From: an uncultured Spirochaetaceae bacterium
GTDB lineage: Bacteria > Spirochaetota > Spirochaetia > Sphaerochaetales > Sphaerochaetaceae
Assembly (NCBI GenBank): GCA_944389145.1
Contig: CALXLH010000025.1
Coordinates: 1 to 64,000, forward strand
Direction: 5' to 3'
DNA length: 64,000 nt
Below the pieces are notes generated by a model. That model saw nothing but the letters and a program-made list of their open reading frames with translations, made no database searches and was not told the DNA's origin. A program made the position numbers and the translations under genes. Shown one piece after another: positions 8,162-52,598 of this stretch. Each line of letters starts with the position of its first letter. Positions within the stretch are counted from its first letter, which is position 1.

Positions 8162-8583
8162 AGCTCCTCCTTCCGGCCTCTTCTGATCCGCTCCGCCCAG
8201 GCCTCGGTGTAGAAGCCATAGTAATCAAGTCGCCTGAGAGGCGTGTATGTATGCAGGATACACCACGCAAGGGATGGAAGCCCTATCACCAGCAGATAGA
8301 GAGGCCCAAGCATCCTGCTCTGCTTCCGGTGTCCAAGCTCATGGCCAAGCGCTCCCGGAGAGGAAACGATGATATACTCGCCAAGGCTGACCGAACCGGG
8401 ACCATGCCACAGATAGAAGGAGGAACCATCGCCAAGGACGATCCTCCTCGCGCGCCTCGACAGCGCGTATCCTATGATATTCTGCGGCAGCTGCCAGATG
8501 TAAAGCAGGAAACCCATAGCGTCATTATAGCGTAGCAGAGGCATGATTGTCGTCACAAGGGAAAGGTTCCAGAGCCTGGTCAT
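8158..8583 (-). CDS. Small membrane protein with HELGH metal-binding motif
   Basis: This 141-residue protein has HELGHRKQS near residue 80, an HExxH zinc-peptidase-type motif. A hydrophobic helix follows (LYLLVIGLPSLAW), and an acidic YTEAWAE near the C-terminus could give the third metal ligand. Another hydrophobic stretch is at the N-terminus. The layout resembles a minimal M48- or M56-like domain, but it is far shorter than a full peptidase, so activity is uncertain. Downstream is the CoA-disulfide reductase, with ATGA overlap. No ribosome-binding site is evident; internal ATGs at codons 14 and 23 are alternative starts. Confidence 0.75.
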   Translation of the reverse strand: MTRLWNLSLVTTIMPLLRYNDAMGFLLYIWQLPQNIIGYALSRRARRIVLGDGSSFYLWHGPGSVSLGEYIIVSSPGALGHELGHRKQSRMLGPLYLLVIGLPSLAWCILHTYTPLRRLDYYGFYTEAWAERIRRGRKEEL

Positions 8584-21768: not shown

Positions 21769-22290
21769 AATCAGCCAAAGCTGATTCCTGAATGACGAAG
21801 TGGGCTGTCCCCGCACAAGCTAAGGGACAGCCCGTTTATAAACTTTCGGAAGATCAAGGTCGCCCATGATCCTCATTCCTGATTCAATGGGCCGCATCCG
21901 CCCAAGCTAAGATATCGGCCCTAAATCAATAATTCGGAAGACCTGGAAACCGAAGTCACCAAGTCGAATTCCCTCTTTCAGTAAGGGCCCAGCCTAGGCT
22001 GAGCCCAAAAGCATAAAATATTCGGAAGAGCTTAACTCTCTTCTACCTATTTCATCCCGTATGCCCAGGACGTGTCTCCCGATGCATACCTTCGCCTATA
22101 ATCCCTGACGGTATAAGCATTGAGTCCGGTTAGGCTCGCCGTCCTCTTGTACCCGTTGCCTTTCTCGAACAGCTCCAGGCACTCCCGCTTCTTCTCGCTA
22201 GGGATCCTAGGCCTTCCTACGGACTTAGCATCCATATCAAGCCTCCCTATCGAGATGGGCCCTGCTCAGGCAAGGCCCATGTTTAATTCC
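21769..22290. repeat. Array of diverged hairpin repeats with about 90-base period
   Basis: At least three units on the plus strand follow the order TTCCTGATT-like lead, GGGC...GCCC hairpin, AT-rich spacer, TTCGGAAGA. Hairpins are at about 21802-21834, 21890-21923 and 21985-22005, each followed within 10-20 bases by TTCGGAAGA (21844, 21930 and 22020). A fourth GGGCC...GGCCC hairpin at 22257-22280 lies past the small HTH gene. Two units share CAAGCTAAG in the loop. None has a T tract, so they are not ordinary terminators. The 289-base gap 21758-22046 is explained by this array. Confidence 0.65.
22047..22235 (-). CDS. Small helix-turn-helix protein, 62 aa
   Basis: The product starts MDAKSVGRPRIPSEKK and contains FEKGNGYKRTASLTGLNAYTVRDYRRRY, a helix-turn-helix like those of resolvases and IS3-type transposase OrfA (homeodomain-like HTH_23/29). 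GGGAGG lies well placed before the ATG. The GRPR motif near the start may contact the minor groove. It is too short to be a full transposase and may be a prophage or element regulator. It is embedded between units of the hairpin repeat array, which may be its binding sites; this is an inference from position only. Confidence 0.7.
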   Translation of the reverse strand: MDAKSVGRPRIPSEKKRECLELFEKGNGYKRTASLTGLNAYTVRDYRRRYASGDTSWAYGMK

Positions 22291-22301
22291 CGAGGGAATA
22301 A

Positions 22302-23622
22302 TCAGATCTTGTCGGTATAGGACCTAGAAAGATCAACTGTTACAAGACTTACAGTCTTATCTGCGTTCTGCTCAATCGCAGGCCCAAACTTAGCTTCCGA
22401 CGTTACCGTTCCGTTGAACTTAAGGGCTGCAGCATCATCAAAGACGATGGTACCAATCTCAGGAGTACCATTGGTAACGGTGAGTGCAGAACCGGAGCTG
22501 GAACCAACATAAGTACCCTTTACAGGAACAGTAAGACTCTCGATAGTGATTGTCTCAATCTTAGCTCCAGCGTCAGCAGCAAGGCCCTTAACAGAAAGCT
22601 TAGTATTCGTGATGGTCACGGTTGCAGGAACAAAGCTTGTTGCAGAAGCAGTGCCCTTTCCTGCTACAGTTATCGTCATCGTAGCATCCTTAGCAAGAGA
22701 AATCTTGACAGGTGACGCTGTGACAATCTCCTTAGCAGCCGTTGACGGCGTATAGGTGATTGAAATAGAACCGGCTCCTGTTGAATCGTATACAACCTCA
22801 GCATCATCCCCTGCGCCAGCAATCGTGGTAAACAGTGCAGATACATTGGATGCATTAGCAAACAAAGACTCTACATAATCATCAACATAGCCATCAAGCG
22901 TGTCAGTACCTTTCATGAATGAAGCATACGTCATCTCACCACCGGTTTTATCCTTTGCAATTACATCGAACACTTTTCCTTCAGGAACGGTCTCGCCAGC
23001 AATAGTAAGGACAAAATCAGAAGGAGTGCTTCCAAGAACAAGGTCAAGGCTAGAAGCCGTTACCGTGTAAGTAGCGACACCGTCTGTATCTGTCGTAATC
23101 GAGGCTGTAGCAGAATTAGCGAAATAACCCTTGACAGAGCCAGTCACAGGAACAATATTTCCAGCTTCGCTCGTCATATAGGTCTCGAAAGTATAGGTGA
23201 AAGTGTTAAAAGCAACTGAATATGGGGTAGTAGAACTTCCATCAGCATTCGATGCGCTTGTATTGAATCCAACGACTTCAAGAGTAGCCGTCTCCGCAGG
23301 ATAGCTGCCCTCTGCACTTGCAGAAGAAACAGCCTTCTCAACATTGAGGGTAGTATAATCAGCACCGACAGTAACCGTATACTTATCCCTCTCCGTCATG
23401 AGATCGTTACCAACATTGAGGAGATCCTTTACCGCAGCCTCAATCCCCCCCCTCAAAGCCAGCAGTTCCGAATACATCATCAACAGCATTCTCAATATCC
23501 TTATCGTTGAATACGGATACGGTAGAATCCTGCCCCTCATCCGGTGTGTTAGAACTGTTATCACAAGCCGCAAAGCCAAAGAGCACGGCAAGCGAAAGCA
23601 GAATTACCAGAAATTTCTTCAT
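22302..23622 (-). CDS. Lipoprotein gene, currently out of frame at an 8-G tract
   Basis: The N-terminal frame starts at 23622 with MKKFLVILLSLAVLFGFAACDNS, a clear lipoprotein signal with lipobox FAAC and GGAGG upstream. After 60 residues it meets eight G (minus strand, 23445-23452) and stops two codons later. A second open frame of about 380 codons starts at the same tract (GGIEAAVKDLLNVGNDLM) and runs to 22302. It is rich in Thr, Ser, Val and Ala with beta-strand character, like a surface protein. Removing one G (or adding two) joins the frames into a protein of about 436 residues. This is either a phase-variable gene in the off state or a homopolymer sequencing error. The function of the mature domain is unknown. 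Confidence 0.8.
23445..23452 (-). repeat. Homopolymer tract G8 in the lipoprotein gene
   Basis: Eight consecutive C on the plus strand (G on the coding strand), at the exact point where the signal-peptide frame and the mature-domain frame meet. Seven G would restore one continuous frame. Confidence 0.9.
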
Positions 23623-23669
23623 TTCGAAATCCTCCTACCGGAATATACTATACCCCTACCGGGTATTTA

Positions 23670-26600
23670 TCAATCAAAGACCAGGCTCTGGAGATTGGGC
23701 CCTCCCTCTCCCCAGCGAGTACCGAATAGATACCATAGATTGATTCTCCACTCTCCGCTATCGAAGTCGTACGCAGACTGGGCAGGGCGCTTAAGGCCTG
23801 TCGTAGGAACACCGGCAAGCTCCCCTCCTGCAAGAAGCGTATCGATAATCTGATCGAAGTACTCATCAGGCGTGTATTCCTTATTTCCTCTAAGGTCCTG
23901 ATAAATCATCGTACCCGTCTTCCAGATCTCATCCGGCATGGAGATCATGCTCTGAGAATACCCCCTCGCCCACTCTGATGCGAGCTGTCCGAACATAGGT
24001 ATCGAATAGCCAAGCATGTTCTGCATGAAGTCAAGGAGAAAGTCATCGGTGGAGAACATCTTATCGTCGTCATCGTCGGGAAGCCATCCTCCTGCAAGAA
24101 GCCCTAATGCAGCCGCAGAAAGGGCAACTCCGCCGAAATGAGCGAACATCCGGCCCCATTCCCTGTTCTGGAAATCCATCGGGATGTCTCCGAACATGGT
24201 ATTCCACATCTGGAACAGGTCGTTCGTGAACATGAAGAACACCCTTGCGAACGGGCTTCGGTTTGTCTGAGCCTGAGCAAGCGATATAGGGTTCGTGACA
24301 GAAAGGGTACGATTAACAAGATTGGTAGCCTCATATGCTGCATCTGTCTCGCTCTTTCCTGCCCTGATCTCCTTATCATATTTCGCTGACCATACAAGCA
24401 TCTTAGAGAGCTGATCTCCCTGAGAGGTAAGCCATGTAGAGAACTCTATGAACCTTTGGCTCAATTCGGTTGCTCGGGAGGTATCAGTCATTCCCTGCAT
24501 GCGAGAGATCTCCGTATTGTAACCAGAACGAAGCGTGGAATATGCAACCCTATCCATTAGCTCTCTGGTACTTCTCCTGCTTCCTGGAGCAAGGATATGG
24601 GAGATTCCATTGATGATATCCGCAGGGGATAGCTCGCCGTCAAAGGCTGCAGGAATCACGGATACAAACTGCTTAATGGTCGTCATGAGGTTGAGCCCTA
24701 TCTTCGCAGCGGCTGCGTTTCCAAGGAATCGGTTCATGAGCTTTTCAAGATCCGTAAGGCTGTTCTCCGGACTGGCTATCCTCTTCACATAATCATCCAG
24801 AGCCTTTGCCCACTTGTCTCCGAATCTGTTAGATACGACGTTCGAGAGATTGCCGAACTTGAGCATATAGGATGCATCAGCAACCGGTCTGGTCATACCG
24901 ATAAGATTCTCCTGCTCCCTTACCGAGGAGATAAACACGGCCATAGGATCCAGCATGAGAGGATACCGAGCATTCTTCTGACGGATATTGAGTGATCCAG
25001 CATTGACCTGCGCACCTTTACCCTTGAACGGACTTCCGAACATGTCGCCCCATGAGCCCCGGCTAGCCTGGACAAGGGGGAAATACCTATCCTGTATCTG
25101 GAGCATTGTGTTGTACTCGCTGTATGCGGCCTCAGCAAGCCTAGGAGTCTCCTTGGCAAGCTGATCGATCATCATGTCCCCGATATTCCTCACCCATTCA
25201 GGAACCTCATTTGTAATAGCACCGCTCTGTATCTTGTTCTTCACATCCGCAAGGTCATTCTTTACATGAGCAAGCGGTGTAGGATGTGATGTATCCCTGC
25301 CTTTGTCAGCAAGAAGCGTCTCCTCAAGCTCTATGTACTCCAATACCTTCTCTGGATTCACGCGGGCTATGGATTCAAGAGTGAAGTTGTTCCCATCCGT
25401 AGCTACCAGCTTTGTCATGCCGTTTATGTTCTGGGAATAGATGTACATTGCCATCACTTCCATGAGAGTGGCATCCCTGCCGCCACCTTGGAGCGCATTG
25501 GTCGTGAAGTGCATGCTGTTCTTCCGGAGGGCATTCATACGCTCGTTATATGTCTTCGATCCCTTCTTGCCGATAATACCCTCAAGGGCGGTCTGGAAAT
25601 CCGCCAAACGCCTATCTATATTCCGAAGGACATTATCGTACGCATTCTGGAATGCCCGAACGAATATCCTCTGGAATGGGCCATCATCCTTTCCTCCATC
25701 GAGAACACGAGCTATGCGCTGTATCTTTAGGAATGACAGCTTGACCGAATCCCTTATCTCTTTACCCTTCGGGGTCTTAACTGAATCCATGAACCTATCC
25801 GGATGCTTCGAGATGTAATCCCAGACATCGGCATCGGAAGGAGTTCCGGAATAAGAGGGATCATTCTTCTTGAGATAATCAAGAGTGACCTCGCGCATCT
25901 CATCGGTAACCTCTCCGATATCCCTGCCCATCGCAGCACGGGCGGCTTCCCTCGCAGCTTTCCTTCTTTCGGTCTGCCTAGCATCAGTAACCTCGCTACG
26001 GAAATCCCTAGCCTCCTGCTTAAGGTCGGCAAGGGCTCTATAGATATCCCTCTTCTCAGCCACCGTAAGATCATTCCACTTAAGCTGACCATCGGACTCC
26101 AAGGTATCTATCGTAGACTGAGAAAGATGCTTCTTGAGATTCGCAGGGATATTCTTGCGTTCATACCTGTATGCTCCAAGATTGCCGGAATAAGCTATCA
26201 CGGGATTGCCATTAGCATCTATATGCCCGAGATCTATCGATATCGGCTGCACATTGCCGTCTGCATCCATTGCCCCCATGCCATCAGCAAGGCCGCCCCG
26301 AAGGCTCTCGATATCCCAATCGAAATCAGGCATCTTCTCCGTGGATACCTCATCGCTGAATCTCCGGTTCTGTCCATTATGCATGAGGTAATATACGTAG
26401 TAGATAGGCTCTTCAAGCATAGCCACGTCGTGTGTCTTGGAGTTGATATTAAGCTTGCCGCGTATCGCCCTCGAAACCCTCTCGGATGCGGTCCTCACAG
26501 CAAGGGATAGAAGCCTCCTGTTAAGCCTGTTCGCTCTCGCCGTCTGCCTCCTCGCCTCCTCACGAGCACGGTCTATCCTGTTCCTATACTCCTCTATGCG

Positions 26601-28022
26601 CTTGTCGTATACGGCCTTCTGATGCATGAGCCTCTTATCGAGGTCAACGATCCTGCTTGCATAGGATTCAAGCTCACCCTCTGCCTTGCTCAGCCTGTCA
26701 CGGAGATCATTAGCGATCGCCTCCCCATTCCTTCTTGCAGCATCAAGCTTCTCCCTGAGCTGATTGACTTCGGACTGCTTCTTGTTCTGGGACTTGCGAA
26801 GGACCTGTATCGTATCCTTCATCTGCTGTGTGTCAGCCTCATATTTCTGCCTATACGCATCCAGATCGGCCTCGCTCTTCCTTGCCCTATCGAGGGCGTC
26901 AGATGCAGAGCGCTTGGCAATCCCGAGCGAATCCTTAAGCTTCTGGATATCGTCTGCAGATACTTCCTCAGAAAGGACCTCTGTATCCTGAGCTTCCATC
27001 CTAGCCCTCTCAGCAGCCTCTACGGACAGGTCTACGATTTCGGAATCAGATACACCATAGACGGTATCGGAAGAGACTCCGTAAGGCTCCTCGCCTCTTC
27101 GGAGAGTCTTCTTGATGAGGTCGAAATCAGAGTCGGCCATATCGACGTAGTTATCGATGATGTCCTGATCCTCGGAGAGCGTTCCCGCTATCCTCGCGCC
27201 TGAATTGACTGCCTGCTGATAGGCGTGTATCCATTCACGGGGATTGCTGTCCATCGAGGACAATACCTGATTCACAAGCTCTATCGGGGAGTTCGCATCA
27301 AGCTGGGATAGAAGCTGATACACATGGGAGCTGGATGGAACATACATCCTCGTATATGTCGTACCGTTCGATGCAGTAGCCTGAACCTTACGCGGTCCGA
27401 GTATCCTCTTAAGATCAAGGAGCCTAGGAAGAGTGTTGAAGCGCTGCTTGAAGGAGTTGACCGCTTCCTTCGGAGTCATGACATGGGCATAGTTCCATGC
27501 CTTGCGGTATATCCTCTCGGCATCCGTCTCATTCATTGTCTTGAGAGAGCCGGAGTCCTTCATAGCCTCGGCATAATCATCTGCGCTGTCGTAGTCGAAT
27601 ATCTGGCTCTGGTCCTCCGAGGATAGCAGGGAGAACTTATCGCGATCATTAAGCTCCTGCCTTGCGGTCTCCACTACCGTCTCATCTTCGGATTCGAGTT
27701 TTGCCTTCACGACATAATCAGGGAGGAATACATCTTTCTCCACGCTTCTCTTGAAGCGCTCATCATACATGCGGATGTACTTCCTCTGTCCCTGATCCAC
27801 GGCATCCTCACCAAGGGCACGCTGGGTACGGATACTGTTCTCTGTATTCTGATTGACGAGATCAGACTTCCTTAGTATCGTATCTGTAGAGGTAACTACC
27901 GATGGCGATTGGAGCCTAACTGAAAGTGCCTCTGATTTGGAGGCGGTAACTCCTGATGGCAATTGGAGCCTAACAGCAAGTGCCGCCTCAGAATTTTCAA
28001 TATCATTCACATAACGAAGCAA
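23670..28022 (-). CDS. Phage-type large polyvalent protein, 1450 aa
   Basis: A giant protein resembling the polyvalent virion-associated proteins of podovirus-like phages and prophages. The N-terminus has two 17-18 residue repeats (EALSVRLQSPSVVTS). A long coiled coil spans roughly residues 360-530. The C-terminal third, with NRSPFARVFFMFTNDLFQMW, hydrophobic AALGLLAGGW and DDDDDK, resembles the LPD38-type domain that often ends such proteins. No catalytic motif is recognised. The frame opens with TTG at 28022 just after an in-frame stop; there is no good start or ribosome site, so the 5' end may be truncated. No capsid, terminase or integrase gene is near, so this is an isolated prophage fragment. 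Confidence 0.75.
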   Translation of the reverse strand: MLRYVNDIENSEAALAVRLQLPSGVTASKSEALSVRLQSPSVVTSTDTILRKSDLVNQNTENSIRTQRALGEDAVDQGQRKYIRMYDERFKRSVEKDVFLPDYVVKAKLESEDETVVETARQELNDRDKFSLLSSEDQSQIFDYDSADDYAEAMKDSGSLKTMNETDAERIYRKAWNYAHVMTPKEAVNSFKQRFNTLPRLLDLKRILGPRKVQATASNGTTYTRMYVPSSSHVYQLLSQLDANSPIELVNQVLSSMDSNPREWIHAYQQAVNSGARIAGTLSEDQDIIDNYVDMADSDFDLIKKTLRRGEEPYGVSSDTVYGVSDSEIVDLSVEAAERARMEAQDTEVLSEEVSADDIQKLKDSLGIAKRSASDALDRARKSEADLDAYRQKYEADTQQMKDTIQVLRKSQNKKQSEVNQLREKLDAARRNGEAIANDLRDRLSKAEGELESYASRIVDLDKRLMHQKAVYDKRIEEYRNRIDRAREEARRQTARANRLNRRLLSLAVRTASERVSRAIRGKLNINSKTHDVAMLEEPIYYVYYLMHNGQNRRFSDEVSTEKMPDFDWDIESLRGGLADGMGAMDADGNVQPISIDLGHIDANGNPVIAYSGNLGAYRYERKNIPANLKKHLSQSTIDTLESDGQLKWNDLTVAEKRDIYRALADLKQEARDFRSEVTDARQTERRKAAREAARAAMGRDIGEVTDEMREVTLDYLKKNDPSYSGTPSDADVWDYISKHPDRFMDSVKTPKGKEIRDSVKLSFLKIQRIARVLDGGKDDGPFQRIFVRAFQNAYDNVLRNIDRRLADFQTALEGIIGKKGSKTYNERMNALRKNSMHFTTNALQGGGRDATLMEVMAMYIYSQNINGMTKLVATDGNNFTLESIARVNPEKVLEYIELEETLLADKGRDTSHPTPLAHVKNDLADVKNKIQSGAITNEVPEWVRNIGDMMIDQLAKETPRLAEAAYSEYNTMLQIQDRYFPLVQASRGSWGDMFGSPFKGKGAQVNAGSLNIRQKNARYPLMLDPMAVFISSVREQENLIGMTRPVADASYMLKFGNLSNVVSNRFGDKWAKALDDYVKRIASPENSLTDLEKLMNRFLGNAAAAKIGLNLMTTIKQFVSVIPAAFDGELSPADIINGISHILAPGSRRSTRELMDRVAYSTLRSGYNTEISRMQGMTDTSRATELSQRFIEFSTWLTSQGDQLSKMLVWSAKYDKEIRAGKSETDAAYEATNLVNRTLSVTNPISLAQAQTNRSPFARVFFMFTNDLFQMWNTMFGDIPMDFQNREWGRMFAHFGGVALSAAALGLLAGGWLPDDDDDKMFSTDDFLLDFMQNMLGYSIPMFGQLASEWARGYSQSMISMPDEIWKTGTMIYQDLRGNKEYTPDEYFDQIIDTLLAGGELAGVPTTGLKRPAQSAYDFDSGEWRINLWYLFGTRWGEGGPNLQSLVFD
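27889..27995. repeat. Two tandem imperfect repeats of about 51-56 bases
   Basis: Both units carry GATGGC(G/A)ATTGGAGCCTAAC followed by AAGTGCC. They are in phase with the reading frame and encode the two N-terminal peptide repeats of the polyvalent protein. Confidence 0.8.
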
Positions 28023-28063
28023 TCCCTGATCGATCCAGTTCTGTATAGATTATTGTTACCGTA

Positions 28064-28094
28064 AGGCTACCCCCCCCCCGTAGGATTTTGTCAA
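28064..28094 (-). promoter_or_regulatory. Candidate phase-variable promoter with G10 spacer
   Basis: On the minus strand a consensus TTGACA (28094-28089) is followed by nine bases, ten G (28079-28070) and TAGCCT (28069-28064). The spacer is therefore 19 bases; eight G would give the optimal 17. Slippage in a G tract between -35 and -10 is a known switch, for example at Neisseria porA. The -10 match is only moderate. It drives toward the 1450-codon gene. Confidence 0.55.
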
Positions 28095-43881: not shown

Positions 43882-44597
43882 AGTCCAGTGATGATAGCCA
43901 TCGTATCATCGAAATTATAATCCAGGGTTATGAAAGGGAACGTGCTGAGTACATATATCTCATTGTATCTGGCCTTGATATCAAGCTGGGTGTCCAATAT
44001 AGCGTGATAATCTATAAGAGCATCCTGCGAATTGGTCATCTTCCTAGCCTTCTCGTAGTTATGCATTATGATATGGCAAAGATCTTCTCTGGTTATACGA
44101 TTCTTCTTAAGGCAGGTAGTCATATTCACGAGCTTCTTATAGGCTTGCCCAGTCAATCCATTCAAAGACACGGATCTTGTCAGGAAATCAGGATCAGGCA
44201 ACGAATATAGATGATAATAAGCCTCAACCATCGGATAGTTCACATAAAGCTTACCCAATTCAGTCTCATTATCAAATATCCTCAAAAGCTCCTTGATCGT
44301 ATCATCAGAGTATTTCTGATGATGGGGATCGAAATCAAATATGAGGTATACTGCGCTAAAGGCATTCTTTGAAAGAATCGAAGGATCAAGCTTGAGTCCC
44401 TTCTGAGTCCTCAGGAATGAGACTATATCATCATATTCACCTGCCATATATGCCTCATACAGCTCATAGATGGAATTAGAGAAAGGGACTATCTCATAAT
44501 CAGCACCTATGAGCGATAACAGGCCATGAGTCTCATTTCCGAGAATCGCAGGTTCCGTCTTCTCTCCCTCTACTATCAGCAGGATCCTACTTCTCAA
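43869..44597 (-). CDS. TOPRIM-like/RloB-type protein, partner of the ABC-type ATPase
   Basis: A protein of about 242 residues. The start RILLIVEGEKTEPAIL has the glutamate of a TOPRIM or RloB/AbiLii-type fold. VYLIFDFDPHH near residue 83 gives the DxD metal pair, and VNYPMVEAYYHL gives another acidic residue. It overlaps the ATPase gene, as in two-gene systems such as RloAB, AbiL and PARIS. There the ATPase senses phage and the TOPRIM or RloB subunit is the effector. A TTG at 44597 with GGAGG five bases upstream is chosen; the upstream TTG at 44609 lacks a ribosome site. The exact system type is unresolved. Confidence 0.75.
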   Translation of the reverse strand: MRSRILLIVEGEKTEPAILGNETHGLLSLIGADYEIVPFSNSIYELYEAYMAGEYDDIVSFLRTQKGLKLDPSILSKNAFSAVYLIFDFDPHHQKYSDDTIKELLRIFDNETELGKLYVNYPMVEAYYHLYSLPDPDFLTRSVSLNGLTGQAYKKLVNMTTCLKKNRITREDLCHIIMHNYEKARKMTNSQDALIDYHAILDTQLDIKARYNEIYVLSTFPFITLDYNFDDTMAIITGLLPT

Positions 44598-45684
44598 ACT
44601 CACCTCCAAGCATCATCTTCTCAAGGTTGTGTCCCTGCCTTATGACCTTTGAGGTGCTATCAGAAAAGCTGGTTATACGGCCATTCTTGAGTATCGCATA
44701 GCAATCTGGCCGCATAAGCTCATTATCAATAAGATACGTATTGTGAGATGTAAGAATCGACTGGAACTCCGATCGATCATTCACATATCGGAGTATGTGC
44801 GTAGAAAGCTCATAATGATAGAACGCATCGAACTCATCAAGATACACGAATGAGATATTCTTCGTCCTCTTCATCCAATAGAAGAACAGCCACAACGAAT
44901 TAGTACCGGTAGAAGCTACCCTATCGAACCTAGCGGAGAAATTTCCATACTTAACGCCGATATAATGCTTTCCGCCCTCAGTGATCTCACACAGTCGGTA
45001 ATCCTGCCCACAACCGCGGAGGAATGACTCAAATTCGCCAAGAAGCCTATTGTTAATTACGAAATCATCAAGATCCTCTCCATTGGCCATCACCCCCATA
45101 AACTCATTTATACGAAGGCTACGGAACCAGAGCATATTATTGACGAATTCCATCAATAGCCTGACGGGGCTATCAGCCTCCCAATACATCGTATTGTTAT
45201 AGATATACTTCAAGGCAGACATAGCCATGTTCTTCTTGCTGATATCTATCGTCGATGCCTCTGGAATGGAATTCTCAAATCTGTTGGAAACATAATTGTA
45301 TTTGAATAGAATCCGATTCCCTTCACTCAGCTCCTCAGAAAGAAGTCTTCTGGATGCATCCTTCGAATACCGATAGACAATGGCCTTGTCTCCAAAGAGG
45401 AACTCATAGCAGAACGAAGCAGCATCCTCAACGGAATCACCATTCAGATAGTAATCATAAAGCGGATTGTAATTCAGATTATCAGTAAGGTGCGTCGTGA
45501 TATCCATGATTGCAGCTCCGAGATTGCTCTTCCCGGAGTTATTCGGGCCATAGATAAGCATCTTATTAACCAATCCGTTCTTTATAAGAGACTCGTTGAA
45601 TTCATAATCCCGCACCCTGGAAAAATCCAGAACAAGCTCATCCTTGAAATTCTTGAAGCCTTTGACACTGAACAGCCTTATCAT
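44587..45684 (-). CDS. ABC-type AAA ATPase (AAA_15/AAA_21), defence-type
   Basis: An ATPase of the SMC/RecF-like group, 365 residues. MIRLFSVKGFKNFKDEL is a typical N-terminus, Walker A is YGPNNSGKSNLG near residue 44, Walker B is FVYLDEFDAFYH near residue 281, and LTSHNTYLID is the switch histidine. The signature is SxGTNSLW near residue 259 in place of LSGGQ. There is no long coiled coil. It is the first gene of a pair with the TOPRIM-like gene, with a GAGAGGA site before the ATG. Gene order and families fit an anti-phage system; activity is not shown. Confidence 0.82.
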   Translation of the reverse strand: MIRLFSVKGFKNFKDELVLDFSRVRDYEFNESLIKNGLVNKMLIYGPNNSGKSNLGAAIMDITTHLTDNLNYNPLYDYYLNGDSVEDAASFCYEFLFGDKAIVYRYSKDASRRLLSEELSEGNRILFKYNYVSNRFENSIPEASTIDISKKNMAMSALKYIYNNTMYWEADSPVRLLMEFVNNMLWFRSLRINEFMGVMANGEDLDDFVINNRLLGEFESFLRGCGQDYRLCEITEGGKHYIGVKYGNFSARFDRVASTGTNSLWLFFYWMKRTKNISFVYLDEFDAFYHYELSTHILRYVNDRSEFQSILTSHNTYLIDNELMRPDCYAILKNGRITSFSDSTSKVIRQGHNLEKMMLGGEFEK

Positions 45685-45860
45685 TTCCTCTCTCCAGCTA
45701 CAGGATAAGAGGATAAGGTAACCTATGCAAGGTAAATGTAAAATAATTACATCACCAATGTCATCAAATCACATCAACTATGACGAGATAGCACCTTCTT
45801 CCAGTCACAATCATTGATTTACAATTGATTATATCTTCTATTTTATATATCACTGAAATA

Positions 45861-46958
45861 ATGACTACAACGAAATTAATCGAAGAAAAAATAACATACA
45901 TAAAGGAAAAAGCACTCAATAAAGTAAAAAATGGTATACTTGAGATAATTCCATACACAAAAGTCAAATTTAAAGGTAAAGGTAAAGATGCAATTCAGTT
46001 TAAGTATATCCAAAATATAGATAATTTGATTTTTCATTTCACAAAATCAGCAAACTTCGAATCTATTTTTAAAAATCAAACATTACTTCTGAATAATTCA
46101 GAAAATACGACTGATCCAATTGAAAATAAATGGTACTTTGAAGACGTTGATACAGGACATTATGTTAATAGTCTAATGAGGAAAAATGTAAGATTCTGCT
46201 GTTTTTGCAAACCTTTTCTTGAAATCGGAGATAATAAAATTCCTGCATATGCATTGTCGCGCATGTGGAATCAATACGGAGGAAATTACGACGGCTGCTG
46301 CATCGGGTTTAATAGAGAGAAATTAGAGAAATTATTAAAAAAACAATATCCGTCTTCATATAGAATCGGAGATATAATTTATGACTTACCGCTCAATCCA
46401 GAATTTGGCGTTTCCAGTATCCATACATTTAAAACAACATCAAGCACACTTAAGGTTTTTGAAGACGGGAATGGAAAATACAAACAGTGGGATGATTCCA
46501 TGGCTAAAGAATTATATCTTTCTACCGATATGTTCGGCTTTCTCTTTCGCAAAGCTTTTGACTATAGAGATGAAAATGAAATCAGATTTTCAATATATGA
46601 TTCGAATGAATACCCAAGATTAATTCACGACATCAACTCTGCAATCGAAATAATCATATTTGGATATAAAGTCGATCCTATAAAAGCATTTGAATATGAT
46701 CTACAAACACAAGCAACAGTGTATAGATTTTACTTTGAATCTCCATATCGATTAGTCAACAATACCATCAACCAACATTGGACAAAAAGTTATGGACGCT
46801 TAGAGAAAATAACAACACCAGAAACAACGTTCTTAAAGAAATATAATTCTGTAAAAGATAAGCTATCTGATGACAATAAAATAAATGCTCTCAACTTCTA
46901 CTTACAATCAGAAGAAAAAGAAAAGGTTATTTCTTTAAACCAAAATCACCCCCATTAA
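45861..46958 (+). CDS. DUF2971 family protein in AT-rich DNA
   Basis: The core starts LIFHFTKSANFESIFKNQTL, interrupted here, with DPIE a few residues later: the DUF2971 pattern of a histidine-threonine start and an asparagine/aspartate-proline-phenylalanine or glutamate motif. Cys-rich VRFCCFCKPF, WNQYGGNYDGCCIGF and later DYRDENEIRF are other family features. The role is unknown, but such genes often occur in defence islands. The base composition is much richer in A and T than all neighbours, a sign of recent transfer. The ATG at 45861 has no ribosome site, while a TATATC box is 10 bases upstream. Confidence 0.75.
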   Translation: MTTTKLIEEKITYIKEKALNKVKNGILEIIPYTKVKFKGKGKDAIQFKYIQNIDNLIFHFTKSANFESIFKNQTLLLNNSENTTDPIENKWYFEDVDTGHYVNSLMRKNVRFCCFCKPFLEIGDNKIPAYALSRMWNQYGGNYDGCCIGFNREKLEKLLKKQYPSSYRIGDIIYDLPLNPEFGVSSIHTFKTTSSTLKVFEDGNGKYKQWDDSMAKELYLSTDMFGFLFRKAFDYRDENEIRFSIYDSNEYPRLIHDINSAIEIIIFGYKVDPIKAFEYDLQTQATVYRFYFESPYRLVNNTINQHWTKSYGRLEKITTPETTFLKKYNSVKDKLSDDNKINALNFYLQSEEKEKVISLNQNHPH

Positions 46959-47019
46959 TATACTACATGCAATGGAAAATCCTTTAGATAGGAACCCATT
47001 TGCTTCTAGAAGATATAAA

Positions 47020-47973
47020 CTAATTATAGAAAGAAAACAGAATAGAATAATTAGTCTTCATTCCCCTATTCTCTTTCTTCCAGCTGCCATTCCAGCGAAG
47101 CTTGGAGAACAGGTTTTCTTTCAGGACTCTATCAAGGGCTTCTTTGTCATAAGGCTCATTGAGGATATCGACAAGGCCATAAAGTGTCTCGCTGGTCAGC
47201 TCAAGACCGTCTATCATCTCCTTGATATCCGGCATATTGAAATACTGGAACATCATTGAGTAATCAAGGAGATAGTAGTCTAGCATCGCATCATGGTTCC
47301 TGCAGTAATCAGAGAAGAAATCTCTCTCAAATTCAAAGAACTTAGATCCCTTGCCACCGCCCAGTACGAACGTATAGAAGCGATCATCAGCGACAAAAGG
47401 AGTCTTATGATGGTCAGAATGAAGCGAATAGAATGGCTTAGTGAATATATCTTCAGGGATAGCACGAGATACATAGATCGTAGAATCCAACCAGAGGCCA
47501 CCATACTCTGCAAGCAGGAACATCCTGGTGATATCAGCAAGATGGGCAAAGGAAATAACACCTGCCCTATGCTTCTCTATGATGTAATCAGGGATATCCA
47601 CATAATCACGGTAGTTGTCCTTCGTAATCACAACGACTTCCGCACCATTCGCATTGCGCCTGATGCTGTCTATGCACATCCTGACAAGCTCAGGAGCAGA
47701 CTGCTCTCCCTGCCACCACATTACCCAGATATACCGATGATCAGGCACCTCCGCACCAAGAGGCTTATCCTTATACCTATTGATCAGGTATGAGAAATCC
47801 CGCTCAAGATATGAGAACACGCACCGATGCTTAGCTGCAACGATGCGATATATCGAATCACGATGAAACGCAGGAACAAAGTAAAGCAGTGAAGCAAGGG
47901 TCTCGAAGCTGAGCTTCCATGAAATCCTATGCCCTACCCTAAACCAGTTCCTGATAAGCCATCTGGTATTCAT
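47020..47973 (-). CDS. Capsular polysaccharide synthesis glycosyltransferase (Caps_synth family)
   Basis: A 317-residue enzyme of the Gly_transf_sug/Caps_synth type. IWVMWWQGEQSAPELV opens the nucleotide-sugar domain, and FAHLADITRMFLLAEYGGLWLDSTIYV, interrupted here, holds the DxD-like LDST. No signal peptide or membrane helix is evident. It should add one sugar to a surface polymer at the inner face of the membrane. Eight bases separate it from the flippase gene upstream, so it is last in the 51584-47020 run. Confidence 0.85.
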   Translation of the reverse strand: MNTRWLIRNWFRVGHRISWKLSFETLASLLYFVPAFHRDSIYRIVAAKHRCVFSYLERDFSYLINRYKDKPLGAEVPDHRYIWVMWWQGEQSAPELVRMCIDSIRRNANGAEVVVITKDNYRDYVDIPDYIIEKHRAGVISFAHLADITRMFLLAEYGGLWLDSTIYVSRAIPEDIFTKPFYSLHSDHHKTPFVADDRFYTFVLGGGKGSKFFEFERDFFSDYCRNHDAMLDYYLLDYSMMFQYFNMPDIKEMIDGLELTSETLYGLVDILNEPYDKEALDRVLKENLFSKLRWNGSWKKENRGMKTNYSILFSFYN

Positions 47974-47981
47974 GCCTGTGA

Positions 47982-49568
47982 TTATACACCAGACTCTGCA
48001 GAATCCTTCTGCAGCTTCTTGAGCTTTCTCTTATCCATGAATGCGATCTTAAGCGTATTCATTATAGTGATTGCATCCTCATTCCTATGATAGACAAGGT
48101 AGAACGTAATGCAGATGAAAGCCAATGATATGATAGCCTTTGCTACAATCTCAACGATTCCAGTAAAAGGCAGGAATGAGTTAACCACATATGTAACGAT
48201 CGAAAGACCTGCAGTGAGAGCGATACGCCCGAAAGTCGTCACATAGTACCAGAAGGCAGAACCTTTAAGACCACTGTGGATTATGACCTGAGGCTCCACG
48301 GTAAGATTCACGAAGATATTGGTGAATATCGTGCCAAGTATTATTCCATCGAAATCCCAGAAATAACCAAGGATTATAGATACAACAAGATTGGTAAGCC
48401 CCTCTACGATCGGCCTCTTCCTATCTTCCCAATAAAGCCCAAGGGAAGTCTTGAACGTGAAAAGGATATCTCTCAGGCATGTAAGATAGAAATTAAAGCA
48501 GATAAGCACAACAGAAAACATGCTTATCGTCCTTCCGCTGCCAAAGAATGTGGAGACGATAGGATTGAATATATTGATCAGGACTATCGTAAGTGAGCTA
48601 TATATCAGGAAGGAGGCCAGGTTAAGCGTAGAGAATGTCTTAGACATGGTACGACGATTCTCTGTCACACCAGCATTCCCAACGCTGGCTGTAATGGCAT
48701 TGGGAAGGATCGTAGCCACATTACGCAGTCCCGTGGTTATCATCTGATAGTTCGCGTACTTTCCCAGAAATGAAACGCCTACCATGGCACTGATCAGCAG
48801 GGAATCCGTCGTATTGACCAGTACCTGTCCTATCCTCGATACGATAAGTCCCTTGGTGTTCTTGATGATATGCGTCTTTATCGCAGGATCGAGTTTCTCC
48901 TTCTTCTCCTTCGAGATCCTGCCGAACTCTCTATTCCCAAGGATATTTATGATAATTAACCGGAGTAAATTAATTGCAGCTACACTAGCAGAATAAAGTA
49001 AGAAATTCTGTGTTGTGATTGTAATTATCATATCAAGAGAATAAAGAACACACCATGAAATATTAGATACCAACGTAATCTTATATTCTTCTTGATTCGC
49101 AGAGAAAAGTATCGACTTATATCCAAAAATATAATTAGAAGCTGTACGCAGTAAGAAAAATAAGAAGTACACTCTTACCTGTTCCATCGGTACAGAAGTC
49201 TTTATCAGGAAAGGAAAGAAAGGCATTATAGCCAATCCACCCACAAAAATAAGGGCCCCTATCAAGATATATGTCTTCTTAAAGAATGACATGATAGCCG
49301 CAATCTGCCCTCTTTGGTTGTATTCAAGAGGTGCATACAAAGCAAAGGCTATCGATGTGGTTATTCCAAGCTCAACAGTAGCAAGTATCCCTGTAATATT
49401 GTTATAAAAGCTGAAAAGCCCTAGGTATTCCTCAATGAAGAACCTATTGAACACAGTTCTCTCGGCAAAATTAAGCACACCCATGACAATGGAAGTAGTA
49501 AGAGCGATCGTCGTATTCAGCTTAGATCGCTTAATTCTAATCAATGTCTTATTGCTTAATGCAGCCAT
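47982..49568 (-). CDS. Polysaccharide flippase (Wzx/oligosaccharide transporter family)
   Basis: An integral membrane protein of 528 residues with about 12-14 hydrophobic helices, of the MATE-like polysaccharide transporter class. FAERTVFNRFFIEEYLGLFSFYNN, broken here, is the start of the family's first two helices. The C-terminus ends in a charged tail KRKLKKLQKDSAESGV. It should flip lipid-linked repeat units across the inner membrane. Neighbours are three glycosyltransferases. Confidence 0.88.
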   Translation of the reverse strand: MAALSNKTLIRIKRSKLNTTIALTTSIVMGVLNFAERTVFNRFFIEEYLGLFSFYNNITGILATVELGITTSIAFALYAPLEYNQRGQIAAIMSFFKKTYILIGALIFVGGLAIMPFFPFLIKTSVPMEQVRVYFLFFLLRTASNYIFGYKSILFSANQEEYKITLVSNISWCVLYSLDMIITITTQNFLLYSASVAAINLLRLIIINILGNREFGRISKEKKEKLDPAIKTHIIKNTKGLIVSRIGQVLVNTTDSLLISAMVGVSFLGKYANYQMITTGLRNVATILPNAITASVGNAGVTENRRTMSKTFSTLNLASFLIYSSLTIVLINIFNPIVSTFFGSGRTISMFSVVLICFNFYLTCLRDILFTFKTSLGLYWEDRKRPIVEGLTNLVVSIILGYFWDFDGIILGTIFTNIFVNLTVEPQVIIHSGLKGSAFWYYVTTFGRIALTAGLSIVTYVVNSFLPFTGIVEIVAKAIISLAFICITFYLVYHRNEDAITIMNTLKIAFMDKRKLKKLQKDSAESGV

Positions 49569-49628
49569 GACTGTGCTATATCACCCTATATATGGAAAAA
49601 AATCAACGTATCAAAGCAACAACAAATT

Positions 49629-50603
49629 TCATAACTTCGATAAAACATAATTACTAATCTGAAATGCGATACGATATATCATTTTGCTTCTTAAAGAAAA
49701 AAACAACAATAAAATATATTCTTTTATCTTCTGCTCTCTGTATACTAACCTTACGCAATTCTTTATCTCAGATTCTAATTCATAAAGGCCTACCCCATTA
49801 TAAAGCAAAACAGATTCACTGAGTAATCCTACATAATTACGAAGGAATCTGGCATACAGTGCAGGCAACAAGCTCTTATCTGAATCAAGAACTACTTTCG
49901 TCATGCTTTCTGCTACAATTCTCAAATCTGCTATTTTTTTCATCATCTTTGAGCTGTTTGTCAAACTAGTTTCTCGATAACAATAATTATACTTATAACT
50001 ACTACCTACAGAAACAGAAGAAGCAGTCAGCATTGCTTTAATGGTAAAATCCAAGTCTTCAAAAACTACATGTTCAATAAACGGATGTACTACATTACGA
50101 GAATACAGCCCATCCCAAATATTCATAGTAAAACCCTTTTTGTGCATAAGCGCAGAATATGCGGCATCATGTCTTGAAATCTTCGTAAAAATATCTGGGC
50201 TGGACTCTTCTTTCTTCCTGTGAGCAAACCCTATATATCTAACTTGGCAATAGCAAATATCTGAATGAGTCCGCTTTTGGATATTTACCAAATATTCAAC
50301 CATATCAAGGTCTAGGTAATCATCTCCATCAATAAACATAACAAAATCTGAAGATGCAGCCTTAAATCCAGTATTCCTAGCCGAAGCCACTCCCCCATTT
50401 TCTTTGTGAATTACTATTATCCTATTGTCCTTAGAAGCAAATTCATCGCAAATTTGACCACTTTGATCTGTACTTCCATCATCGACTATAATAATTTCAA
50501 TATTCTTGTATGTCTGATTGACTATACTAGTAATACATCGTTCTACGTATTCATCGATGTTATAAACTGCGACAATTATTGAAACCTTAGGCTGATAATC
50601 CAT
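49629..50603 (-). CDS. Glycosyltransferase family 2
   Basis: GT-A fold transferase with KVSIIVAVYNIDEYVERCI at the N-terminus, IIIVDDGSTDQSG near residue 37 and FIDGDDYLD near residue 90 (the DxD metal site). Length 324 is normal. The C-terminal ~80 residues are hydrophobic and basic. Its DNA is AT-rich compared with the housekeeping genes, as is usual for polysaccharide loci. It is nine bases from the GT2 gene upstream and the sugar transferred is unknown. Confidence 0.9.
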   Translation of the reverse strand: MDYQPKVSIIVAVYNIDEYVERCITSIVNQTYKNIEIIIVDDGSTDQSGQICDEFASKDNRIIVIHKENGGVASARNTGFKAASSDFVMFIDGDDYLDLDMVEYLVNIQKRTHSDICYCQVRYIGFAHRKKEESSPDIFTKISRHDAAYSALMHKKGFTMNIWDGLYSRNVVHPFIEHVVFEDLDFTIKAMLTASSVSVGSSYKYNYCYRETSLTNSSKMMKKIADLRIVAESMTKVVLDSDKSLLPALYARFLRNYVGLLSESVLLYNGVGLYELESEIKNCVRLVYREQKIKEYILLLFFSLRSKMIYRIAFQISNYVLSKL

Positions 50604-50612
50604 ATTTTATCC

Positions 50613-51584
50613 TCATTTTATTATGGTGTGATAAAGACGAAAGATACATGAATAAACTTGCTCATTTACACTCAATAAAAATGCAACAAATTTAGAGAAT
50701 AAGTTATTATTATATAATGTAATAACACTTTTCTTTAAACATTTTCGAAGTTCCAGAAACAGCGTTTTTTCTCCATCACTATAGGAGTACTCATCTAATA
50801 GCCGAAAATACATCAACATGCATCTTCTTTCATAAGCCTTAATAACAGACTCATCACAATCAGACACAAGTAAACCTATTTGATCAAGGGCAAATTTACA
50901 ATCAGCAAATCGTTTGGCTATATTATATGATCTAGAGCTTCCTGTCCTAATTCTGTAGCTATATCTTAGAGAATACCCCTTAGCAACGTATCTAGCCTTC
51001 AACAAAGTCGCAACTGTAAAAATCTGATCCTCTGCAATAAAATGATTTTCATCGAAACGAGATAGTATTTCGCGGCGAAACAAACCATTCCAAAGATACA
51101 TTCCCATTCCATTTTTCATTGTTAATGCTAATTTCATTGCATCGTTTCTAGCTAAAATCTTACTTTGTATATTCTCGCCAGATTCCTTTTGGGGAAAACT
51201 CTTCCCGCTAGCTTCATCTACATATCTATAAGCACAATATGAAACATCACAATCGTTCTCAACCAATAGATTATATAGATATTCAATAAATCCATTATCG
51301 ACATAATCATCAGAATCAACAAATGATATAAATTCACCTTTTGCGTTTTCTAACCCAAGATTTCTAGCAGCCCCCGCACCTTTGTTTTCTACATGGAAAA
51401 CTCTAATACGCTTATCATGTTTGGCATATTCATCACAAATAGCCCCACAATTATCAGGACTTCCATCATCAATAAGCAGAATTTCTATATCCTGGTATGT
51501 TTGGCTCAGTATACTCTCTATACATTGGGATAAATAGTTTTCTACTTTATATATTGGAACAATAACAGAAATCAGTTGACTCAT
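50613..51584 (-). CDS. Glycosyltransferase family 2
   Basis: Second GT2 in tandem, first gene of the minus-strand polysaccharide run. SVIVPIYKVENYLSQCIESI, interrupted here, LLIDDGSPDNCG and FVDSDDYVD are the nucleotide and metal motifs. The length of 323 and domain plan equal those of its neighbour, though identity is modest, so it likely adds a different sugar. Strongly AT-rich sequence. The 117-base gap upstream separates it from the LicD operon, in the opposite direction. Confidence 0.9.
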   Translation of the reverse strand: MSQLISVIVPIYKVENYLSQCIESILSQTYQDIEILLIDDGSPDNCGAICDEYAKHDKRIRVFHVENKGAGAARNLGLENAKGEFISFVDSDDYVDNGFIEYLYNLLVENDCDVSYCAYRYVDEASGKSFPQKESGENIQSKILARNDAMKLALTMKNGMGMYLWNGLFRREILSRFDENHFIAEDQIFTVATLLKARYVAKGYSLRYSYRIRTGSSRSYNIAKRFADCKFALDQIGLLVSDCDESVIKAYERRCMLMYFRLLDEYSYSDGEKTLFLELRKCLKKSVITLYNNNLFSKFVAFLLSVNEQVYSCIFRLYHTIIK

Positions 51585-51652
51585 ATCTATTATGATAATT
51601 GGATTAATTTAGTATTTGAATATATAGGTATAAATTTCCTCTTAAATCGGCT

Positions 51653-51680
51653 TTGCTACTTCGTGACATTCTAATATGAT
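51653..51680 (+). promoter_or_regulatory. Promoter of the LicD operon
   Basis: TTGCTA (51653-51658), a 16-base spacer and TATGAT (51675-51680), then GGAGAG and the ATG at 51702. Confidence 0.6.
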
Positions 51681-51701
51681 TGCAGATGATACGGAGAGAC
51701 A

Positions 51702-52598
51702 ATGGACCCTGTTAAGGATTTCATAAACTGCAATCTTGATATGTTCGTAGAGCTGCCGGATGAGGAGCTGAAGAAGATACATAAGGTGCTTTTCGGCATA
51801 CTCAGGGATTTCGTCACATTCTGCGATGATAACGGTCTCATCTACTTCCTTGGAGGAGGCACGGCACTGGGAGCTGTCAGGCACAAGGGATTCATCCCAT
51901 GGGATGAGGACGTAGATGTGGTCATGCCAAGGAAGGATTACGAGGTATTCAAGAGGGAATTTCCAAAGGCCTTCCCTGCTTACAGGGTCGAGGCTCCGAA
52001 TACCGGGACAGTGGGAAATACGGCATACACGAAGATCAAGAGAGAGGATACGGTGCTGCTGGAGGTCGTCGGGGACAAAAGGCATCCGGGGGTATTCATA
52101 GATGTCTTCCCGCTGGAATACGCGCCTTCCTCCGGATTTCTCAGAGCCGTGCAGGGGCCGTACTACACGCTTATCCGCGATATCATCTACACGATATTCT
52201 ACTCTGCGTCCTATAAGGAGACGATCAGGCCGCGTATCGGCAACTGTCCTTTGAAGACAAGGCTTGAGCTGAGGGCTGGCTATGTCCTCGGAAGGATACT
52301 CGGGCTTGTCCCGTTAAGAAGATGGATCAACCATCTCGACAAGGCTGAGAGGAAGAAGGAAAGTGACCTCGTAGTGATTCCCACAGGACTCCATAACTAC
52401 AAGCACGAGCTGTTTCCGGCCTCTGTCTACTTTCCGCCTAAGAAAGGGATGTTCGAGGGTATGGAAGTCAACCTTCCGAATAAGGTCGAGGAAATACTCA
52501 CCGTATTCTATGGGGATTATATGACGCCGCCGCCTGACTCTGCGAAGGCACAGCATTTCTTCGTGGATATAGATATACCTGAGGAGGCTACAAGATGA
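51702..52598 (+). CDS. LicD family phosphotransferase
   Basis: LicD-type enzyme that moves phosphocholine or another nucleotide-activated phospho-alcohol onto a surface glycan. The nucleotidyltransferase-fold core is visible as YFLGGGTALGAVRHKGFIPWDEDVDVVMPR, broken here; GGxAL and the DEDVDV metal acids are the key residues near residues 48-68. Length 298 is usual. GGAGAG precedes the start. The next gene overlaps by four bases and encodes a cytidylyltransferase, which may supply the CDP-linked donor. Confidence 0.9.
   Translation: MDPVKDFINCNLDMFVELPDEELKKIHKVLFGILRDFVTFCDDNGLIYFLGGGTALGAVRHKGFIPWDEDVDVVMPRKDYEVFKREFPKAFPAYRVEAPNTGTVGNTAYTKIKREDTVLLEVVGDKRHPGVFIDVFPLEYAPSSGFLRAVQGPYYTLIRDIIYTIFYSASYKETIRPRIGNCPLKTRLELRAGYVLGRILGLVPLRRWINHLDKAERKKESDLVVIPTGLHNYKHELFPASVYFPPKKGMFEGMEVNLPNKVEEILTVFYGDYMTPPPDSAKAQHFFVDIDIPEEATR

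Follow-up and report, generated by a model that had tools for sequence, protein, structure and literature searches.

The window, by which we mean the whole 64-kb stretch of DNA analysed here, carries on its minus strand a lipoprotein gene that is split between two reading frames (Table 1). The signal frame begins with an ATG at 23622, preceded by the ribosome-binding site AGGAGG at 23636-23631, and reaches a stop at 23440 after 57 codons in frame. The predicted signal peptide, as read from the sequence, was MKKFLVILLSLAVLFGFAAC, with cleavage and then DNSS..., and its lipobox and cysteine, from which acylation is inferred, were common to seven paralogues of the same genome. A tract of eight G lies after codon 56 and after the lipobox, and the signal and body frames meet exactly there. 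From the tract the body frame stays open to a stop at 22302, with no second lesion in 380 codons, a length for which the chance of an open frame is about 1e-8 when equal codon use is assumed. The earlier note had claimed that a signal-peptide frame and a Thr/Ser-rich frame of about 380 codons meet at eight G, and this claim held in both coordinates and content.

The G8 tract was the sole run of ≥5 G/C or ≥6 A/T inside the split gene, and only one other G/C run of ≥7 was found in the window, a C10 (plus strand) at 28070-28079. Searches with the lipoprotein body found no family in Pfam, PHROGs or NCBIfam and no relatives in the viral collection or among phage records, and AlphaFold2 on the body alone gave a mean pLDDT of 37.8.

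Table 1 Features of the split lipoprotein locus and its surroundings, with positions in the window
Feature	Position	Strand	Basis
Three CTTCCGAA-hairpin repeat units downstream of the HTH gene	21798..22037	-	Sequence; also in other cassettes
62-aa helix-turn-helix (HTH) gene, downstream of the lipoprotein	22047..22235	-	HTH_23 match (E 5.6e-5), slightly below the Pfam cut-off
Hairpin ATGGGCC..GGCCCAT, between lipoprotein and HTH gene	22255..22280	-	Sequence
Thr/Ser-rich lipoprotein body, other frame, 380 codons	22302..23444	-	Open frame; 30% identity to G004 lipoprotein body
Lipoprotein start: ribosome-binding site, predicted signal peptide, lipobox, first 57 codons, then stop	23440..23622	-	Sequence; seven paralogous starts
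G8 tract joining the two reading frames	23445..23452	- (C8 on + strand)	Sequence, run census, homologue
4.4-kb segment between cassette promoter and lipoprotein start	23636..28048	-	Absent from C4 paralogue
Promoter-like site TTGATA-17-TAGTAT just before the lipoprotein	23645..23673	-	Consensus scan, 9/12; may be chance
1450-aa ORF within the 4.4-kb segment, start codon uncertain	23670..28022	-	C-terminal third resembles phage polyvalent proteins
Cassette promoter: TTGACA (28094-28089), 9 nt, G10 (28079-28070), TAGCCT (28069-28064)	28064..28094	-	Sequence; same layout before paralogous lipoproteins

The search for homologues with an intact frame that the earlier note had suggested was successful. 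In a genome of the same genus (G004; L010/L266), one uninterrupted lipoprotein of 465 aa spans both halves of the split gene, with residues 1-52 aligning to the signal half and residues 58-450 to the body half. Because both frames align along this unbroken protein, they are parts of one gene. At the junction the homologue has GGTGGAATT in place of the G run, and the coding run is thus not conserved in G004.

G runs in the genome and in relatives

We counted runs of G≥8 by pattern search of the genome, a 2.13-Mb assembly of 42 contigs and 95% completeness that is probably metagenomic. It contained 14 such runs in total, 11 of which lay in promoter position, in the -35/-10 spacer of lipoprotein-type promoters. 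Lipoproteins follow seven of these promoter runs, a pilus-chaperone-like secreted protein follows one and the 1450-aa ORF of the window another, while the remaining two, located at the ends of contigs, belong to a cassette promoter identical to one on contig C13. Their -35/-10 spacers were 16-19 nt long in nine cases, and 21 and 26 nt, counted from the TTGAC match, in the other two. The three further runs of the genome lie early in lipoprotein coding sequences: on C5 a G8 within the signal peptide (out of frame), on C37 a G9 likewise within the signal peptide (in frame), and the out-of-frame window tract. None of the 14 runs in the genome fell outside this pattern of promoters and gene starts of surface-type genes. 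Because the runs are so few and all placed in this pattern, a random G8 in the 1.3-kb split gene itself is unlikely (by our estimate, less than about 0.5%).

The promoter geometry was the same across most of the genus. Of 48 genus genomes, 34 contained TTGACA-N(5-12)-G8, whereas none had the reversed control pattern; a sample of the class gave the pattern in 98 genomes out of 395 and few matches to the control. Neither the TTGACA-G8 promoter pattern nor its reverse was found in the viral collection. Among 137 distinct runs fetched from the genome itself and its relatives, and selected partly by the TTGACA-G8 pattern, 66 had TTGAC just upstream, the run being followed by TA in 58 of these, and the spacers of the TTGAC-type runs peaked at 19 and 18 nt. 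At the first 30 genus promoter loci fetched, nearly all runs were followed by a signal-peptide gene, mostly with a lipobox and mostly at a distance of 25-42 nt. Coding runs were also found in relatives, among them runs in lipoproteins, in frame at L228, L232 and L241 and out of frame at L193 and L249, the last in an outer-membrane-like gene.

Run length differed between closely similar copies, all lengths being taken from metagenome-type assemblies. Three contigs of the genome itself are identical over at least 71 bp before and at least 39 bp after the run, yet one has G9 and the other two G10; the contigs could be separate loci or represent a mixture. In two related genomes, orthologous promoters carried G11 and G9 at 90.6% identity, and G10 and G8 at 86.6% identity. 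In the copies compared, the G run evolves in length faster than its flanks. Such variation in length between related copies supports switching only indirectly, and it comes from sister promoter runs, not from the G8 locus.

Several side observations were made on G runs in other settings. In relatives, runs lay within or between HsdS-like, helicase-like and glycosyltransferase-like genes (L191, L247, L251 and L239; names read from sequence alone), which are other classic phase-variable classes. A scan of genome contigs, made without a reversed-pattern control, matched TTGACAAAANNNTACNG8 in many gut Lachnospiraceae, Clostridia and Bacilli (L064-L143), with TATAAT-like boxes directly after the run and secreted-type proteins often downstream. 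The promoter regions of the mouse Lachnospiraceae copies L117 and L118 were 98.9% identical and carried G10 and G11, and a more distant copy (L104) had G9. Cassette promoters with an A inside the G run occurred at L003 (G000:C4 near 18937) and L273 (GGGGAGGGGG; GGGGGAGGGG); it is possible that these interrupted runs are naturally locked switches.

The lipoprotein cassette and its displaced promoter

Comparison of the copies defined a cassette unit of poly-G promoter, conserved signal peptide, divergent body, small HTH gene and hairpins, in which all parts except the bodies are similar between copies at the DNA level. The window copy fits this unit on its downstream side, with the HTH gene and hairpins behind the lipoprotein. 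Five further copies of the HTH gene were found in the genome, each behind a lipoprotein, and across the genus the gene was present in 22 of 35 genomes sampled, in up to 13 copies, with one weak case among 360 others; within the genomes sampled it is nearly genus-specific. In the six genomes whose run lists were complete, 26 of the 40 HTH copies had a same-strand G run 0.3-4 kb upstream, compared with 0.67 expected, and HTH copy number tracked the number of promoter matches over 35 genomes (Spearman 0.88). Rfam gave no match at the hairpins and only a tRNA elsewhere. As a separate observation, both cassettes on C13 (L302, L303; G000:C13) carry a second lipoprotein gene (MRKIGGLIA...VGCDNS) between the HTH gene and the hairpins.

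Upstream, the cassette promoter of the window has a 19-nt -35/-10 spacer with G10, its effect on transcription being inferred, and the block 28236-28062 is 75-85% identical to the cassette promoters of C13, C26 and C27. On C4 the match breaks off at 8442 and continues from 8445, so that promoter adjoins lipoprotein start, whereas the equivalent positions in the window are 28049 and 23635. The window lipoprotein therefore has no poly-G promoter directly before it, and its cassette promoter stands 4.4 kb upstream, on the far side of a phage-like ORF. This 1450-aa ORF matched phrog_9880 (E 1.3e-16, residues 1013-1424), with weak matches in related genomes and in one phage and no relatives in the viral collection; it also carries an N-terminal repeat and sits directly behind the poly-G cassette promoter. 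The insertion had no clear target-site duplication: its ends shared only a 7-base inverted match and not a single direct word of ≥7. Sites of the TTGATA-17-TAGTAT type, such as the one just before the lipoprotein, were no more frequent in the consensus scan than in shuffles. Elsewhere in the window, 44000-52000 has a G+C of 0.36-0.40 compared with about 0.54 around it, which suggests acquired DNA.

Proposed phase variation and its rivals

We regard slipped-strand phase variation of the lipoprotein, with the assembled copy caught out of frame, as the likely explanation (probability about 0.75), although switching remains an inference because there are no expression or read data. In the proposed mechanism, slippage would alter the length of the G8 tract and move the signal peptide in and out of frame with the 380-codon body, and because of this shift cells would either make or not make the lipoprotein. 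Most cassette members would switch at transcription, through the poly-G in the -35/-10 spacer; since the 4.4-kb segment separates promoter and lipoprotein, control of the window copy has apparently shifted from the spacing of the promoter to translation. The G runs of the genus, most of them in promoters, would probably give random on/off switching of surface lipoproteins. A role of tract length in setting expression, frequent and reversible switching, display of the protein at the surface and involvement of the HTH protein are likewise inferred.

In support of phase variation, one of the other two coding runs is in frame and one out of frame, all 14 runs of the genome fit one pattern, and there is published precedent for both run positions. 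Against it stand the intact G004 homologue without a run at the junction, the origin of the run lengths in metagenome-type assemblies, and the loss of the adjacent cassette promoter, which could mean decay. The claim of the earlier note that this is a phase-variable lipoprotein in the off state is thus supported as the best reading, with a decaying pseudogene not excluded, and its basis is now genome-wide and genus-wide, resting on run placement and on length differences between orthologous or duplicated copies. Missed at that stage were the putative main switch of the lipoprotein family, the poly-G between -35 and -10 in the promoter, and the apparent separation of the split gene from its poly-G promoter by the 4.4-kb insertion.

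The main rival, which we consider unlikely, is a decaying gene that lost its function after the 4.4-kb insertion parted it from its promoter, the G8 frameshift being a fixed lesion. Decay would agree with a cassette promoter 4.4 kb away, with a local promoter-like site no better than chance and with the absence of a G run at the G004 junction; however, the remaining 380 codons are open without a second lesion, the signal peptide, lipobox and ribosome-binding site are retained, and G8 is rare in the genome and otherwise always found at surface-type promoters or gene starts. A base-count error in assembly, the alternative offered by the earlier note, would mean that the gene is really intact and the run of another length. 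The 42-contig, probably metagenomic assembly and the greater difficulty of calling long G runs leave some room for this, but a long G run would still occupy the start of a coding sequence that belongs to a switchable family, and count errors would not give 14 runs with one placement. Because of this genome-wide pattern, a pure base-count error was judged very unlikely and set aside. Homopolymers can be slippery, which would allow a programmed frameshift in which some full-length protein is always made through slippage of ribosomes or RNA polymerase on the run. This explanation is untested, but the parallel promoter runs of the same family cannot act in this way and siblings with in-frame coding runs exist, and we regard it as all but excluded.

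Alongside phase variation of this one gene, a bolder reading can be proposed, which we hold to be clearly less likely than not. It holds that a family of lipoprotein cassettes is spreading in uncultured gut spirochaetes of the genus, each cassette with its own poly-G switch and dedicated HTH gene. The conserved ends and divergent middles would permit exchange of bodies between switchable sites, and the window would record a switch that moved from promoter to coding sequence after insertion of a phage gene.

Comparison with known systems

The mechanism itself is already known from Treponema pallidum and Neisseria; what is new is a genus-wide set of lipoprotein cassettes with a linked HTH gene, together with a member whose putative switch lies in the coding region. 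No paper on poly-G switches in this spirochaete group was found in the literature searched, which is weak evidence since most subscription journals were outside the search. Large repeat-switch sets are known mostly from pathogens, and a recent review raises the question of whether database bias explains this (PMC11868660). Here, an uncultured gut lineage carries a compact and nearly pure set in which each long G run fits the pattern of a surface-gene switch. The HTH linkage provides a tag for locating cassettes, and existing metagenome reads could reveal switching in the animal gut without cultivation.

In T. pallidum, another spirochaete, the promoters of the surface-protein genes tp0126, tprE/G/J and tprL likewise contain poly-G runs of 7-11, and the run of tp0126 lies between -35 and -10, where a spacing of 17 nt is optimal (PMC7864442). 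T. pallidum is a pathogen and the genes encode outer-membrane proteins, whereas the present set consists of lipoprotein cassettes that recur across genome and genus, each with the conserved signal peptide and an HTH gene linked to it, and the run of the window copy lies in the coding region instead of the promoter. Paralogous surface lipoproteins with variable expression are known from Mycoplasma as vlhA and Vpma (PMC6258824, PMC2268961), but vlhA relies on GAA repeats located upstream of the promoter, and Vpma on another type of switch, unlike the spirochaete poly-G. Homopolymers between -10 and -35 also set promoter spacing in Neisseria porA and fetA (PMC5320596, PMC7864442), which, unlike the spirochaete set, are single genes without a cassette or linked HTH gene. 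In Neisseria hmbR, nalP and others, a homopolymer in the 5' part of the frame gives translational phase variation (PMC5320596, PMC3786947, PMC3723659). As in the window copy, the frame is shifted there by a G/C run early in a gene for a surface protein, but the spirochaete gene belongs to a family that would otherwise switch in the promoter.
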